Shown piece by piece: positions 24,130 through 34,387 of a DNA stretch of 41,607 nucleotides (position 1 is its first letter; each line of letters opens with the position of its first letter). The stretch is from a virus. The notes below the pieces were generated by a model. The model had not been told where the DNA came from and ran no database searches. It saw nothing but the letters and a program-made list of their open reading frames with translations. A program made the translations under genes and the position numbers. Where the stretch lies: the IMG/VR virus record IMGVR_UViG_3300037087_000453, positions 1 to 41,607 of that record; one strand, given 5' to 3'.

Positions 24130-25422
24130 ACTCTTCCCACCCTGCCTAAATGGATCTCGCGCAACATCCCAAGTGTTAAAAATCTTGGGGCTATTATCTT
24201 GCTTATACGGGTCATAGACATTGACTTTGTGCGTAGCGATTGCATATCTTAAAGCGTCAACTGTATGGTCATCCTTCTTTAAAGGCTCATCCCATCCCTT
24301 TACAGCTGCTTTCTGGTCCCATACGTAGGTTTCTATCTCTCTGATGGTGTTCTTGCATTCTGAGCATACTACAATCGTTCCACGCTTCATTTCTGATGTC
24401 ATCATGGTTATACCATCGAGAACCTCATTATTGGCGTCAACTGTATGAATCCCACGTCGTCTAAGCTCTGTTTTAAATGCTGCTGCTGATGGGTCGATAT
24501 AGACATTCTTTACGTCGTAGTCTTGCAAGAAGGTTTGCACATCATCGGCAAACTCTGAGTTAGTTTTCTGTCTTTCTCTCTTAACAGGGTCCCAATAATA
24601 TTCCTTCTCAACCCACATCATTTTGCCTTGTTGTGTGTATCGACCAGTAGATATGCCAATAAGAAGGCACACAAAGGGGTTAACTGCTCCATAGTCAATT
24701 GACGCAATCCAGTATTCAGCAGCACGAGGAGGGCGAGGTACAACATGAACTTTAAGATCGAAGAAATCAAAGATAGACCCCTCTGCTAAGCACCATAAAC
24801 CTAGGTAGTTTCGTTTGTAAAATATGCCAGATAATGAATTCTTAAGTCTATCTTTATAAGATTGCTCAAGATATGGATTATCTTCGAGAGTAAAATGCAA
24901 TTGATAGTAGTTTTTGGGGTCTTCTGGTGCTTTATCAATCCATTGCTTGAGTTTGTGTGATGGATGAGCGGGGTTCATCGCTGCAAATCCTCTAGACCAA
25001 GGCTCTGAAAGTCTTGTATCAATCATATCAATGATAGATTCAGGGTAAAGAGTCATCTCATCGCAATAAACAGCGGACATAGTGACACCCTGGAAGTTTC
25101 CTATCGCACCTTCGTCTTTTGCGCCAAGTACTGTGATAATCTTATCTTTGTATAGGAGTTTTTTACCCGACCACGAACAGAATGGCCTATACATTGATAG
25201 CTCTTCCGATTCCAGCAAAAGACGAACCACATTGCGATAAGCTGTATCGAAAGTATGGCCCACAATATAACACTTACTATCCGGGCAACGATGCACAGCG
25301 TGCATAAAAGCAAAAACAGACCCAACGGTTTTACCTGTTCTAACAGAGCCATGGGCTAGATTCCATTTGGATTTACAGTTGCTAATGAATTCTAATTGTT
25401 TCGGAGATAATGGGTCTTGCAT
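24121..25422 (-). CDS. terL: Terminase large subunit
   Basis: The 433-residue protein has a Walker A-like GSVRTGKT (25-32), Walker B VYCDE (118-122), and a C-terminal RNase H-like nuclease with D243 (SIDYGAVNPF), D310 (VYIDPSAAAF) and D385/D389 (DDHTVDALRYA). It is the ATP-driven DNA-packaging motor and headful/cos nuclease of the phage. It is coupled to the small subunit by a TAATG overlap. The length is usual for this family. This is the most secure functional call in the window. Confidence 0.95.
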   Translation of the reverse strand: MQDPLSPKQLEFISNCKSKWNLAHGSVRTGKTVGSVFAFMHAVHRCPDSKCYIVGHTFDTAYRNVVRLLLESEELSMYRPFCSWSGKKLLYKDKIITVLGAKDEGAIGNFQGVTMSAVYCDEMTLYPESIIDMIDTRLSEPWSRGFAAMNPAHPSHKLKQWIDKAPEDPKNYYQLHFTLEDNPYLEQSYKDRLKNSLSGIFYKRNYLGLWCLAEGSIFDFFDLKVHVVPRPPRAAEYWIASIDYGAVNPFVCLLIGISTGRYTQQGKMMWVEKEYYWDPVKRERQKTNSEFADDVQTFLQDYDVKNVYIDPSAAAFKTELRRRGIHTVDANNEVLDGITMMTSEMKRGTIVVCSECKNTIREIETYVWDQKAAVKGWDEPLKKDDHTVDALRYAIATHKVNVYDPYKQDNSPKIFNTWDVARDPFRQGGKSSF

Positions 25423-25856: not shown

Positions 25857-26012
25857 ATGGATTTACGTCAAGATTTATTTTTTCTCATATTTTCATTTCT
25901 TTTTTGTTGTACATTAATTAAAGCATATGCAATAATGTTGTGTATCAAAGCAAGCTCTCTGGTGACTAGCCAACCAAAGCTAGCAGATTGTAGCGGCTGT
26001 GATGATGAGTAA
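25857..26012 (+). CDS. Possible 51-residue membrane peptide overlapping the leader RNA
   Basis: A frame from ATG 25857 encodes a hydrophobic segment (FFLIFSFLFCCTLIKAYAIM) and a short Cys-containing tail. There is no SD. Its second half is the region that forms the conserved leader RNA, and the homologous leader at 31.7 kb does not preserve this frame, so coding is doubtful. Confidence 0.25.
   Translation: MDLRQDLFFLIFSFLFCCTLIKAYAIMLCIKASSLVTSQPKLADCSGCDDE
25907..25936 (+). promoter_or_regulatory. Promoter of the 26.0-26.9 kb operon
   Basis: TTGTAC (25907-25912) and AATAAT (25931-25936) are separated by 18 nt. The predicted start near 25943 coincides with the first base of the conserved leader RNA, as in the twin promoter at 31.7 kb. 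Confidence 0.5.
25943..26004 (+). ncRNA. Conserved structured leader RNA, copy B
   Basis: The element starts TATCAAAGC, which can pair with GCTGTGAT (25996-26003) to close a stem with one A-G mismatch. Inside, CTAGC (25966-25970) and GCTAG (25979-25983) form a hairpin with loop CAACCAAA. The preceding TGGT (25960-25963) can pair with ACCA in the loop, making an H-type pseudoknot. Copy A at 31.7 kb has the same plan with compensatory changes. It precedes the SD of the 26040 gene. Confidence 0.6.
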
Positions 26013-26039: not shown

Positions 26040-26246
26040 ATGATGATTTTATCAAATGACTTAAAAAACGAGTTAATGATGGGATATCTTAGACCATTGA
26101 GCAAAGAGGAGTATTTCAACGTGATAAGTGATAAATATCACGAGGATAATAATGAGAATGCAAATATTATTTTAGATAAATGTGTTGAATATGGCATAGA
26201 GTTAGAGCAAGTTTTAGAATATGCATTAAGGAGGAGTGAGGTTTGA
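26040..26246 (+). CDS. 68-residue hypothetical early protein
   Basis: SD TAGGAG precedes the ATG. The product is helical and acidic (LSKEEYFNVISDKYHEDNNE) with a C-terminal LEQVLEYALRRSEV helix. It is the first gene behind the conserved leader RNA and overlaps the next gene by 4 nt. The family was not recognised. Confidence 0.55.
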   Translation: MMILSNDLKNELMMGYLRPLSKEEYFNVISDKYHEDNNENANIILDKCVEYGIELEQVLEYALRRSEV

Positions 26247-26452
26247 TACCTCACTTTCTAAAATATATGAGATTATCTTATTTTAATGAAAAAAATGAAT
26301 TTATAGAAATTTCTCCTTGTGAATATGAAATAAATCCAAACCAATTCGATTATATAGATTTTATTTTAATAAAAGTTCAGAACGAAGTTTTAAATTTTGA
26401 GATGCTTTACCCCCCTCAAAACAGCATTTTTACGAGTGAGTCAAAAAATTAG
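26243..26452 (+). CDS. 69-residue hypothetical protein, TTG start
   Basis: The start is probably TTG 26243, overlapping the previous stop, with AGGAGTGAGG just upstream. The protein is rich in Asn, Phe, Tyr and Ile (LKYMRLSYFNEKNEFIEISP) and looks beta-leaning. Function is unknown. Confidence 0.45.
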   Translation: MIPHFLKYMRLSYFNEKNEFIEISPCEYEINPNQFDYIDFILIKVQNEVLNFEMLYPPQNSIFTSESKN

Positions 26453-26470
26453 TTTACAAACAAAAAGGGT

Positions 26471-26743
26471 ATGAAAATGAGATTTAACCTTGACGATTTG
26501 ATAGAAGTTATGAAACAAATAATCTATTTAAAAGAAGCGAATGAAATGGCTTCTAAAGAATTATATATGTGGAGAGAAAAATATCTATTTAGCCTTCCTA
26601 AATATGAAGATAAAGAGAAGGGAGCTTATATTTGGAGATGTTTTATGTCTACAACAGCAGAGGAATTTTCAAAGAAATGTCCAGGAGTACATATTGTATA
26701 TTTGGAGGAACAATGGAAGAAAAGCCAACAAGAAAAGAATTGA
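26471..26743 (+). CDS. 90-residue hypothetical protein
   Basis: Two ATGs (26471, 26477) are possible, with AAAAGGGT upstream. The product is mostly helical (NLDDLIEVMKQIIYLKEANE) with a Trp-containing C-terminal part (YIWRCFMSTTAEEFSKKCPG). It overlaps the next gene by 31 nt. The family was not recognised. Confidence 0.5.
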   Translation: MKMRFNLDDLIEVMKQIIYLKEANEMASKELYMWREKYLFSLPKYEDKEKGAYIWRCFMSTTAEEFSKKCPGVHIVYLEEQWKKSQQEKN

Positions 26744-31165: not shown

Positions 31166-31192
31166 AAGAGGGATTAATCCCCCTCTTTTTCT
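31166..31192 (+). terminator. Fifth plus-strand terminator-like hairpin
   Basis: AAGAGGG pairs with CCCTCTT (7 bp) around an 8-nt loop, followed by TTTCTT. It overlaps the 3' end of the minus-strand Cro-like gene. It could end antisense transcripts or, with AATTT on the other side, act weakly in the gene's own direction. Confidence 0.55.
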
Positions 31193-31377
31193 TCTCCTCT
31201 TAAATCTATTACGGTAACTTGTCCTCCTGTCATAATCTCAATCTGATTGGCAAGCTTTATTCCGCATTTAATAACTCCGCGATTGATACCTCGAATGTGA
31301 TTGCGATTCATTCCCAATTGGTCAGCAAATTTGGCTGCTGTCATATGATTAAAATGTAAATAGTCTCTAAGTTTCAT
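31174..31377 (-). CDS. Cro-like / YdaS-type regulator
   Basis: The 67-residue protein has a classic helix-turn-helix: MKLRDYLHFNHMTAAKFADQ, then LGMNRNHIRGINRG as turn and recognition helix, followed by IKLANQIEIMTGGQVTVIDL, a C-terminal strand typical of Cro/YdaS proteins. It lies in the minus-strand early operon just behind the divergent promoter region. The probable target is the AACATTTATGTT palindrome between the two promoters, so it could act as the early-gene switch. Confidence 0.75.
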   Translation of the reverse strand: MKLRDYLHFNHMTAAKFADQLGMNRNHIRGINRGVIKCGIKLANQIEIMTGGQVTVIDLRGEEKEGD

Positions 31378-31627
31378 CGTAAGTTTCTCCGAATAAATGA
31401 TTTGATAATTCTAATAATGCAGCCAAAAGTGTATAACACTCTTCTAAAGAGTTTGGATGACATTGTTTTAAGAAAGCAGTTAATTTTTCTGTACCTTCTT
31501 CGTCGTTAAATGCATTTGCATAAGTATGTAATAATGTAAGGGCTGATAATAAGACAGTTAAACAGCTTGTATCTTGATCTTTAATATATTTCCTAAGACG
31601 ATTTTCTATTTGCAATTTTCTATTCAT
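31367..31627 (-). CDS. 86-residue helical early protein
   Basis: First gene of the minus-strand early operon, with a strong SD (AAAGGAGGATAGGA). The product is all-helical (LTVLLSALTLLHTYANAFND, LEECYTLLAALLELSNHLFG) without a clear membrane span. It overlaps the regulator gene by 11 nt. Function is unknown. Confidence 0.55.
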   Translation of the reverse strand: MNRKLQIENRLRKYIKDQDTSCLTVLLSALTLLHTYANAFNDEEGTEKLTAFLKQCHPNSLEECYTLLAALLELSNHLFGETYDET

Positions 31628-31688: not shown

Positions 31689-31700
31689 AACATTTATGTT
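31689..31700. promoter_or_regulatory. Operator-like palindrome between divergent promoters
   Basis: AACATTTATGTT is a 12-bp palindrome lying between the two -35 boxes and touching the rightward one. It is a plausible target of the nearby Cro-like regulator; this is inferred from position only. Confidence 0.4.
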
Positions 31701-31728
31701 GCGTTAAATAAGTTGATTGTGCTATATT
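31699..31728 (+). promoter_or_regulatory. Early rightward promoter
   Basis: TTGCGT (31699-31704) and TATATT (31723-31728) are separated by 18 nt. The predicted start near 31734 coincides with the start of the conserved leader RNA, as at 25.9 kb. Confidence 0.55.
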
Positions 31729-31733
31729 TAAGT

Positions 31734-31799
31734 TATCAAAGCGATCATCTCCCTGGTGACTGGCCACCAAACCAGCAGGTTGTAGAGAAAGCTGAGATA
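31734..31799 (+). ncRNA. Conserved structured leader RNA, copy A
   Basis: TATCAAAGC (31734-31742) pairs with GCTGAGATA (31791-31799) except for an internal two-base mismatch. Inside, CTGG (31760-31763) and CCAG (31772-31775) form a hairpin with loop CCACCAAA. TGGTG (31754-31758) can pair with CACCA in the loop as a pseudoknot. Compared with copy B, one stem pair is G-C instead of A-T, and one whole base pair is absent. Flanks CTGGTGACT and TTGTAG are shared. Confidence 0.65.
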
Positions 31800-31819: not shown

Positions 31820-32008
31820 ATGAATGACTTACAACAACTTATAGAAATAACAAATAGATTATGCACTACATTAACAATGATGTCAGAGAACGAAAGAAAA
31901 TTTGGCTTCGATCTTTGCTATCGCATTGAGCAGTTAAGCTGGGATATGGAAAGATCAGCTAATGAGATGAAGGAGATCAGTGATTATCTCGTTGGAGGTG
32001 TCGCATGA
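31820..32008 (+). CDS. 62-residue helical early protein
   Basis: AAAAGGA (31807-31813) precedes the ATG; this is the first gene behind leader RNA copy A. The protein is helical throughout (LQQLIEITNRLCTTLTMMSE, CYRIEQLSWDMERSANEMKE), suggesting a coiled-coil adaptor. It overlaps the next gene by 4 nt. Function is unknown. Confidence 0.55.
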   Translation: MNDLQQLIEITNRLCTTLTMMSENERKFGFDLCYRIEQLSWDMERSANEMKEISDYLVGGVA

Positions 32009-32202
32009 GCCTCGCTGTTGATGATAGCCCTTTACAGGATGAGTTTATGTTACAGGGATACATGGAAGAAATAAGGTACAAAGTAATCGAGAAGCTTTCG
32101 CCTCTTGAGATTGCTGCACTTTTCCAAGATTTTAAAGAGTTTCAAATTAGATTGAGAGAAGAAAAAGATCTCGCCTATGGCGAATACAACTATGAGGAAT
32201 AG
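32005..32202 (+). CDS. 65-residue acidic early protein
   Basis: It starts by ATGA overlap after GGAGGTG. The product has an acidic N-terminus and two helices (EEIRYKVIEKLSPLEIAALF, DFKEFQIRLREEKD). The family was not recognised. It lies two genes upstream of the recombination pair. Confidence 0.55.
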   Translation: MSLAVDDSPLQDEFMLQGYMEEIRYKVIEKLSPLEIAALFQDFKEFQIRLREEKDLAYGEYNYEE

Positions 32203-32204
32203 AT

Positions 32205-32462
32205 ATGAATAGTCCATGGGAAAAAACGAAAAATCATACTAGATGGAGAAATCAATTCTTATTGCATACTGATCAAAGAGATTATTTAATTTCTTATATT
32301 GAAGATCAAGATGAGACTGCAATCATAACAGAAGATCATAAATATCGAATTCTCAATGGAGATTGGAGAAAAGAATATGAAGATATCTATCAAAATGGTT
32401 TAGAGGCTTGCATAGAATTTTTTAACAATAATGAAAACAGTAAATCAAAATGGAGTGACTAA
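32205..32462 (+). CDS. 85-residue early protein
   Basis: The product is Trp-containing and polar (PWEKTKNHTRWRNQFLLH), followed by an acidic strand-helix part (YLISYIEDQDETAIITED) and an Asn-rich end. Its stop overlaps the ERF start by one base. Function is unknown. Confidence 0.55.
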   Translation: MNSPWEKTKNHTRWRNQFLLHTDQRDYLISYIEDQDETAIITEDHKYRILNGDWRKEYEDIYQNGLEACIEFFNNNENSKSKWSD

Positions 32463-33172
32463 TGAACCAATCAGAAAACATAAATGAGTTAGCAACAGCC
32501 TTGGCCAAGTGCCAGGGTGAAATTACACCCGCCTTAAAAGATTCGAATAACCCTTTTTTCAAAAGCAAGTATGCAGATTTAAACGCTGTGTGGTCAGTTT
32601 GCCGAGAACCTCTTTCTAGGCATGGCCTTTGCGTTATTCAGACTATAGACATGGGAGAGGGTGGAGAACCTATTTTAATCACAACATTAGCCCATTCTTC
32701 AGGTCAGTGGATTAAATCGTTTTCCCCTGTTCCAGTTAAAGAAGAAATAGTAAAAATCGATCCCAATAAAAAAGAAGAAATAGGAAAAATCGGTCCCAAT
32801 AAAAAAGCATACAAAAATGATCCGCAGGCTCTTGGATCAAGTATTACTTATATGCGTCGTTATAATTTGAGTAGTATAGTTGGCATTTCTACCGATGAAG
32901 ATGACGATGGAGAAAAAGCAATGAATCGAAATGCAAAAGACACTAAAGACTCTAAAGAAAAGCCTAAAGTTCCTGATCTTCCTGTCATCAGTTTAGAGGA
33001 ATCTAACAAACTCAAAGAATTGGCCGATTCCTGCGATCCTGAGTACCTTTCTAAGCTTATGGGATATTTGAGCCAGCAAGGTGTTAAAGCCTTCGCTGAG
33101 GTTAAATTAGACATGTACAACAAGATTCTAAATGGCATGATCAAGAATGCGGAACTTTTCTCGGGGAAATAA
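32462..33172 (+). CDS. erf: ERF-family single-strand annealing protein
   Basis: The 236-residue protein has ERF hallmarks: NPFFKSKYADLNAVW (30-44) and DPQALGSSITYMRRYNLSSI (120-139) followed by VGISTDEDDDGEKA. ERF proteins form rings on single strands and anneal complementary ends, as in P22 recombination and circularisation. The linker (about 93-116) contains an 11-residue tandem duplication (32741-32806). The C-terminal about 70 residues are charged and variable. It acts with the YqaJ exonuclease encoded next. Confidence 0.85.
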   Translation: MNQSENINELATALAKCQGEITPALKDSNNPFFKSKYADLNAVWSVCREPLSRHGLCVIQTIDMGEGGEPILITTLAHSSGQWIKSFSPVPVKEEIVKIDPNKKEEIGKIGPNKKAYKNDPQALGSSITYMRRYNLSSIVGISTDEDDDGEKAMNRNAKDTKDSKEKPKVPDLPVISLEESNKLKELADSCDPEYLSKLMGYLSQQGVKAFAEVKLDMYNKILNGMIKNAELFSGK

Positions 33173-33201
33173 AATGCTAAAACTACATATCAAGGATGCA
33201 A

Positions 33202-33792
33202 ATGAAGATTATAGACTTAATTCAAGGCTCAACGGAATGGTTGCAATTCCGTCAGAATCATATTGGGGCTTCGGAAGCCGGCGCAATCCTAGGAGTCAAC
33301 AGATGGAAGACTCAACTTCAAGTATGGGAAGAAAAAGTTTTTGGTTGGTCCGAGCCTATGAATGCGAACATGCAAAGGGGCGTGGAGCTTGAACCACTAG
33401 CCCGAATAGCATTTGAGCTTGAGATGGGTATTAAAGTTGAGCCAATGGTCGCAGAATGCGAGAAGCTGCCCTTCCTTAGCGCATCGTTTGACGGAGTGAG
33501 TAAAGACAGGCAAACAATCGTTGAGATCAAATGCGGCAAAGCAGCGCATAAATTAGCCATGAATGGAGACATTGCCGATTACTATCGCTGCCAACTTCAA
33601 CATCAAATGTACATTGCTGATGTAGAAATGATTTTTTTCTATAGCTTTGATGGTCAAGAAGGTATAACCATAATTGAAGAAAGAGACGATAAGTTTATAA
33701 AAATGATGCTTGAAAAATATTCAACCTTCTGGAATTGTGTCACCAATCTGACACCTCCGGAGGCTAATAATGAATCAGTTAACATTGTTTGA
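33202..33792 (+). CDS. YqaJ-type recombination exonuclease
   Basis: ATG 33202 is chosen because AAGGA lies 5 nt upstream; ATG 33196 overlaps that SD. The 196-residue protein has GSTEWLQFRQNHIGASEAGA (9-28), an early acidic motif (RGVELEP, E62), the PD-(D/E)xK core with D97 (SFDG) and E108-x-K110 (VEIKCGK), and QLQHQ (131-135). It is a lambda-exonuclease-like nuclease that resects ends for the ERF partner. It overlaps the next gene by 23 nt. Confidence 0.85.
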   Translation: MKIIDLIQGSTEWLQFRQNHIGASEAGAILGVNRWKTQLQVWEEKVFGWSEPMNANMQRGVELEPLARIAFELEMGIKVEPMVAECEKLPFLSASFDGVSKDRQTIVEIKCGKAAHKLAMNGDIADYYRCQLQHQMYIADVEMIFFYSFDGQEGITIIEERDDKFIKMMLEKYSTFWNCVTNLTPPEANNESVNIV

Positions 33793-33961
33793 TTTACCAG
33801 TTAATAAAGATTACGAATTTGATAAAATGAAAAAAGAATGGGAAAAGACTCGGCGTTCTTTATATGCCAGGAATGCCGAGCTTACCAAAATAATTCATGA
33901 GATGAATCAAGAATTTCAGATTATCAAGATGAACTTATGCAAAGGAAAGCTCATTGTCTAA
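33770..33961 (+). CDS. 63-residue charged helical protein
   Basis: GGAGG precedes the ATG, which lies inside the end of the exonuclease gene. After a short Leu-rich start (NQLTLFDLPVNKDY) the protein is one long charged helix (KMKKEWEKTRRSLYARNAEL), likely a coiled coil. It may be an accessory factor of the recombination module. Confidence 0.55.
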   Translation: MNQLTLFDLPVNKDYEFDKMKKEWEKTRRSLYARNAELTKIIHEMNQEFQIIKMNLCKGKLIV

Positions 33962-34133
33962 ATATAAAGAAATTAGAGTCGATGGTAGAAAAGTTTATTT
34001 TCATCGGATTTTAATGGCAGAAAAATTAGGACGTCCCCTATTAGCATGTGAGCATGTCTATCATCTTGATGGGGATCCAAGAAATAATGATATTCAAAAT
34101 TTAGTTATAATAAAAAAAACGGAGAGAACATGA
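33954..34133 (+). CDS. HNH homing-type endonuclease, compact
   Basis: A TTG start (33954), overlapping the preceding stop, opens a 59-residue frame with YFHRILMAEKLGRP, then EHVYHLDGDPRNNDIQNLVI. The H...H-x-D-G-N/D...N-x-x-x-N-L spacing is the HNH_3 pattern of phage homing enzymes, and both ends of the core are intact. It ends with an ATGA overlap with the next gene. Short length leaves room for little beyond the catalytic core. Confidence 0.65.
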   Translation: MSKYKEIRVDGRKVYFHRILMAEKLGRPLLACEHVYHLDGDPRNNDIQNLVIIKKTERT

Positions 34134-34387
34134 AATTTGTATTAGCAACATTACTTTTGCCTTTTTCCCCTATGGCATGTGTTAATTGCCAGCAACAAAT
34201 GATAACCGAAAGACAAGCAGCTTATACCCTTTATCTCATGCAAACAGGGCATTTAGACAAGCAATACTACTATGGAAAATATCAGGGTTTAAACTCAGCC
34301 TGTAAAATCTATAACGATATTCACAATATATGCGAAACATATGAGAATGAACAGGCGATTTTTGAATCTGGAATTGGCTTAGATTAA
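34130..34387 (+). CDS. Secreted small protein, possible lipoprotein
   Basis: The 85-residue product starts with a signal-like sequence (MKFVLATLLLPFSPMACVNC); PMAC could serve as a lipobox with Cys 17. The mature part is helical and Tyr/Gln-rich, with four more Cys likely to form disulphides (CQQQMITERQAAYTLYLMQ, CKIYNDIHNICETY). Export suggests an envelope effector or superinfection exclusion. It closes the recombination operon and is followed by a 19-bp palindrome. Confidence 0.6.
   Translation: MKFVLATLLLPFSPMACVNCQQQMITERQAAYTLYLMQTGHLDKQYYYGKYQGLNSACKIYNDIHNICETYENEQAIFESGIGLD

Follow-up and report, generated by a model that had tools for sequence, protein, structure and literature searches.

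Structured leader RNAs at the early promoters of uncultivated phages

Two leader elements in one viral contig

The window, the whole stretch of DNA analysed here, comprises the 41,607 bases of an uncultivated virus record. It carries two related leader elements, each lying between a promoter and a run of small open reading frames (ORFs). Copy 1 heads a recombination operon that faces a divergent Cro-like gene; copy 2 heads a shorter operon, whose first ORF (family c79) is matched by a homologous ORF at the equivalent place in contig G001. The features of the two loci are as follows.

31174–31627, − strand: divergent genes across the promoter region, including a Cro-like HTH protein at 31174–31377; the element is absent on this side
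31699–31728, + strand: promoter of the recombination operon, of the same class as those upstream of the family; −35 TTGCGT at 31699–31704, 18-nt spacer, TG at 31720–31721, −10 TATATT at 31723–31728
31734–31799, + strand: leader RNA copy 1 (model R2, 66.3 bits; covariation; P1 arm-swap)
31820–34387, + strand: copy 1 operon, with three small ORFs, the Erf-like and RecE-like genes and more small ORFs
31820–32008, + strand: first ORF of this operon, one of a related set of 59–62 aa
32462–33172, + strand: Erf-like annealing protein
33196–33792, + strand: RecE-like exonuclease
25908–25936, + strand: promoter of the second operon; TGTACA, 17 nt, extended −10 TGcAATAAT
25943–26004, + strand: leader RNA copy 2 (model R2, 77.3 bits; folding)
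26040–26743, + strand: copy 2 operon, with ORFs of 68, 69 and 90 aa

The sequence bears out the placement of both leaders in the original prediction, and the shared blocks, the G-C to A-T change in the hairpin and the added base pair that it described are all present (CTGG/CCAG in copy 1, CTAGC/GCTAG in copy 2). Each hairpin encloses an 8-nt loop, CCACCAAA in copy 1 and CAACCAAA in copy 2. Overlooked at that stage was a further pairing: the variable G/A of GCAG(G/A) pairs with the C/T that precedes CTG, giving CCTG...CAGG in one copy and TCTG...CAGA in the other. The pattern TATCAAAGCN{2,14}CTGGTGACT has exactly two matches in the window and none in 100 dinucleotide shuffles of it. An unfiltered covariance-model scan found no third copy in the window, scoring the two at 77.3 and 66.3 bits and the next best site at 12.6. 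The helices are positioned as follows.

Copy 1, closing stem P1: TATC/GATA, 31734–31737 with 31796–31799; AGC/GCT, 31740–31742 with 31791–31793
Copy 1, inner helix: CTC 31749–31751 with G(T)AG 31782–31785; CCTG 31752–31755 with CAGG 31776–31779
Copy 1, apical part: bulge GTGA 31756–31759; hairpin P3, CTGG/CCAG, 31760–31763 with 31772–31775; loop 31764–31771
Copy 2, closing stem P1: TATCA/TGATG, 25943–25947 with 26000–26004; also AGC/GCT
Copy 2, inner helix: CTC 25955–25957 with G(T)AG 25990–25993; TCTG 25958–25961 with CAGA 25984–25987
Copy 2, apical part: bulge GTGA 25962–25965; hairpin P3, CTAGC/GCTAG, 25966–25970 with 25979–25983; loop 25971–25978

A family of homologues in uncultivated viruses

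Pattern scans of IMG/VR with a hairpin filter, together with the covariance models R1 and R2, extended the pair to 35 distinct copies in 31 viral contigs (the window and 30 others), all uncultivated. The search for homologues with models built from the copies, which had been proposed as a check, thus returned further members that covary. Second copies in L053 and G021 came from the covariance model and not from the core pattern. Most contigs, which may be incomplete, have one copy; four have two, on one strand in the window, G001 and G021 and on opposite strands in G012. A second match to R1 in contig G008 was weak (E = 0.27) and was left out of the count. When 80 Erf loci were picked by protein alone and then searched for the leader RNA, it was recovered in 3 of them, L227 (the same as L308) and L234, at 61 and 36 bits, and L228 (the contig already known as L003); the other 77 were without it.

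Several further searches returned no members. None of 83 pattern matches in genome contigs passed the hairpin filter, and we take them as chance; a blastn match in a Vibrio phage covers the promoter and TATCAAA only, without the element. When 12 elements were concatenated and compared by blastn with 50,697 phage records, five weak matches at E = 4 appeared, all under annotated proteins, and in the host search the strict core pattern was absent from all 369 genomes of one sampled class. The window has no match in Rfam 15 at gathering thresholds, and E-value searches of Rfam with both copies gave only unrelated weak matches (a snoRNA, an sRNA and a lncRNA). We did not meet the family in the main texts of the open-access papers searched. 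We regard it as a new RNA family, of the known kind 'phage early leader RNA'.

A conserved fold supported by covariation

The family core reads CUC-YCUG-NNGA-CU(n)-loop-(n)AG-CAGR-UU-G(N)AG within the sequence-variable closing stem P1. Inside P1 come the CUC/G(N)AG pairing and then a YCUG/CAGR helix, which carries a 5′ bulge of 4 nt (NNGA) and a UU-like 3′ bulge; the apical hairpin P3, with 4–6 bp and usually an 8-nt loop, follows. Across the 35 sequences, 96.2% of core cells are paired, and the covariation score is 0.433, compared with 0.117 ± 0.018 in shuffles (0 of 500 as high) and at most 0.067 in slid controls.

Covariation is strong in the apical hairpin and in the Y-R pair. The apical pairs occur as G-C, A-U, C-G and U-A, with 20 distinct sequences among the 5′ arms of P3; L234 has C-G in place of an otherwise near-invariant U-A. 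Swapping P3 arms between copies lowers the pairing from 4.7 to 2.8 bp. The arms of P1 likewise pair better with their own partners than with swapped ones (p = 5e-5; for example, TATCAAAAC/GTTTTGATA in L045), and this stem, whose sequence varies freely, is conserved as structure rather than as sequence. The Y-R pair is C-G in 29 and U-A in 6 of the 35 copies. Because later search patterns fixed this pair, the copies that they found lend it no independent support; the first 15 sequences, found with patterns that did not force it, have 12 C-G, 3 U-A and no mismatch. The invariance of CTGGTGACT is partly ascertainment as well, since a relaxed pattern gave the bulges UCGA, AUGA, UUGA and GGGA.

Single-sequence folding energies are weak alone (z from −2.4 to +0.5), and the case for an RNA rests on covariation. 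Although the shuffle tests ignore relatedness, an artefact is unlikely in view of the slid controls and of the variety of hairpin sequences. The homologues and their covariation give strong support to the claim that two early operons have a structured RNA at their +1. The pseudoknot between TGGT and ACCA that was proposed with it can form in the two window copies and lacks support across the family, in which the proposed partners are paired at 73.9% against 74.8% in shuffles and the covariation is 0.129 against 0.127. Similarly, the ACCA described before each Shine–Dalgarno sequence (SD) is found in both window leaders and, by eye, is absent from most homologues.

Operons, genes and lineage

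Most contigs with the element have many proteins in common, including a P22-type portal, Erf, RecE and the Cro-like HTH protein, and form one lineage with no close cultivated phage; in the search for cultivated relatives and hosts, the capsid protein had no match and the portal only distant ones. G012 has few families in common with the other contigs, yet carries two copies. A typical copy heads an Erf/RecE operon divergent from a Cro-like gene, and a second type of copy, in four contigs including the window, heads another small operon. The first genes differ between phages and lie 20–471 nt from the element.

Some observations on these contigs stand apart from the leader itself. Many of the recombination operons start with a related protein of 59–62 aa (M..LqELIetAnrLc...), present in the window and in L308, L309, L310, L316, L174 and L045, and those of other phages with unrelated first genes. 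The slot beside RecE holds different annealing-type proteins, Erf-like or, by eye, RecT/Bet-like or SSB-like, which fall into one phmmer cluster (seen in the window at 32462–33172 on the + strand and in G002, G003, G005, G017 and G022); an Erf-like and a RecT/Bet-like member have a common C-terminal tail, with 42% identity over 110 aa, which looks like an exchangeable module. The tyrosine integrase domain PF00589 was found in none of 22 contigs with the element (G000–G014, G017 and G020–G025), and about half of these 22 carry a Cro-like HTH gene.

Predicted position at the start of early transcripts

A promoter-like sequence stands just upstream of all 35 copies, always in the same orientation. 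Its −35 is typically of the TTG type, in many cases with TTAAA after it, and its −10 is typically extended, of the form TGnTATATT. The −10 ends 5–7 nt before the element in 31 of the 35, and an A lies at the usual start distance, 7–8 nt past the −10, in every copy. By this spacing P1 would start at the predicted 5′ end of the transcript, so that the RNA would begin inside its own closing stem. In the window, the +1 had been predicted at the first base of each element; the predicted start is in fact one base further in (A31735 and A25944), 7–8 nt past the −10.

With a weight matrix trained on the element promoters, 31699–31728 is the top-scoring site of its class in the window. The same contigs carry promoter-like sites of similar score without the element, which is therefore not simply a part of the promoter. 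Of the 80 Erf loci, 34 were examined for promoters; a promoter of this class scoring above 20 occurs in just three of these, the same three that carry the element. The class itself, TTGnnTTAAAw-N10-TGnTATATT, recurs, for example at 31699–31728 in the window, near 303 (+) in G001 and near 25024 (−) in G006, and also at sites that lack the element.

Comparison with HK022 put and other leader RNAs

The original prediction likened the two leaders to the put RNAs of phage HK022. HK022 put RNA has two stem-loops in a V shape, with a triple helix in stem I, and occurs twice per genome, at PL and PR, with putL just downstream of an early promoter (PMC9378689). It acts on the transcription complex (PMC9378689), suppressing pausing and termination without a phage protein, and mutations in the β′ zinc-binding domain block it. 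The analogy holds in several respects: both are leaders of about 65–70 nt at early phage promoters, placed at or close to +1 in an early region with Erf and without an evident partner protein; Erf is encoded further along the strand of putL in HK022 and in the operon downstream of the element here. Two copies in a genome, the arrangement of put, are seen here in four of the contigs.

Homology does not hold. The present RNAs form one bulged coaxial hairpin inside a closing stem, unlike the V-shaped, two-stem put with its triple helix. In line with the remark that the sequences differ, R1 and R2 have no match in the HK022 genome at E ≤ 1 and E ≤ 5, and an unfiltered scan of the putL region reaches at most 4.2 bits. 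By its fold and by the model searches alike, the leader RNA falls outside the HK022 put family. Antitermination is established for put; in the present family it would be the corresponding role.

Two further systems invite comparison. The lambda nut sites (boxA/boxB), which act with N protein, are cis-acting RNA sites of early operons; the present element differs in being a larger, 65-nt fold that starts at +1. The ompA leader has a stabilising hairpin with its stem at the very 5′ end; unlike hairpins of that type, the present stem encloses a conserved internal core.

Possible functions

We favour, with a probability of roughly 0.4, a put-like RNA that would act in cis on host RNA polymerase and be made from the +1 of strong early sigma70-type promoters. 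The hairpin would fold while leaving the polymerase and, as HK022 put RNA does, bind it at the RNA exit region. The early transcription complex would thereby become resistant to pausing or to termination, probably Rho-dependent, and transcription could then run to the end of the long series of small early ORFs and through Erf and RecE. We favour action on the polymerase because the element is independent of the downstream gene and fixed at +1, and because its core resembles a recognition surface. The early position, in an Erf/RecE operon opposite a Cro-like gene, and the unrelated first ORFs also speak for it, as does the lack of a visible obligatory phage partner: the only protein family common to all 15 contigs of at least 32 kb is c0, whose members in the window are large ORFs. 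Against it, the copy 2 operon, at about 1 kb, is short for one that would need antitermination, the fold and sequence are unlike put, and the partner-protein search has low power for small divergent ORFs. Downstream terminators show no enrichment, strong intrinsic terminators being rare inside the headed operons and none being convincing in those of the window, so that antitermination is something we infer.

The same features bear on other explanations. In essentially every copy P1 starts at +1, and it is the structure of this stem that is conserved, as would suit a stabiliser that buries the 5′ triphosphate end in a helix and blocks 5′-end-dependent decay of early mRNAs, whatever gene lies downstream. 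A plain 5′ stem would suffice for this, however, leaving the near-invariant CUC-YCUG-..GA-CU/AG-CAGR-U..AG core and the conserved bulges unexplained, and we consider a stabiliser rather improbable. Those near-invariant bases adjoining bulges, which resemble a recognition surface, and the presence of two copies in one genome, which fits a trans-acting factor, could instead mark a site recognised by an RNA-binding protein of the phage or the host, used in nut-like processive antitermination with a partner or in translational control of early mRNAs. Yet no small phage protein is conserved alongside the element in these contigs; no N-like or other small early protein was common to all the large contigs (phmmer, E < 1e-4), a search of low power because N-like proteins diverge fast. 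Nor does the 20–471-nt distance to the first SD or ORF suit a translational operator, and a protein-binding site seems to us slightly less probable than a stabiliser.

A riboswitch-like ligand sensor would share the compact conserved core, the variable peripheral stem and the leader position, but no overlapping terminator or anti-SD platform was seen, the downstream genes are unrelated and two copies head different operons, which makes such a sensor very unlikely. P3 is also an inverted repeat near a promoter, as expected of an operator palindrome or of an initially transcribed sequence acting as DNA; within one genome the two copies have different arms with pairing kept, the stacked helices are asymmetric, with bulges and some G-U pairs, and the orientation to the promoter is fixed in 35 of 35 copies, so we give a DNA-level role still less credence. 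Conservation through a translated peptide frame, which the original prediction had named as a possible refutation, is ruled out as an explanation: 18 of the 35 copies have no stop-free frame, the core length takes all three residues modulo 3 and the changes follow pairing rather than codons. One frame is stop-free in 16 copies, as happens often in short sequences, and the chance that a leader peptide lies behind the conservation is negligible.

Significance

Of phage RNAs that reprogram RNA polymerase on their own, the literature searched offers HK022 put as the known example. It is possible, though doubtful, that the present family is a second, structurally unrelated class of protein-free antiterminator or anti-pausing RNAs, in an uncultivated podovirus-like lineage and at least one distant phage, binding host polymerase from +1. 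A separate RNA family with the placement of put but another fold would make it possible to ask directly whether control of polymerase by RNA alone evolved repeatedly, and would also probe what the polymerase recognises. Should it prove to be a stabiliser, it would still be an RNA family not described before, with clear covariation, and would supply promoter and leader as a ready-made cassette. The leader family may be a new RNA device for phage control of early transcription.
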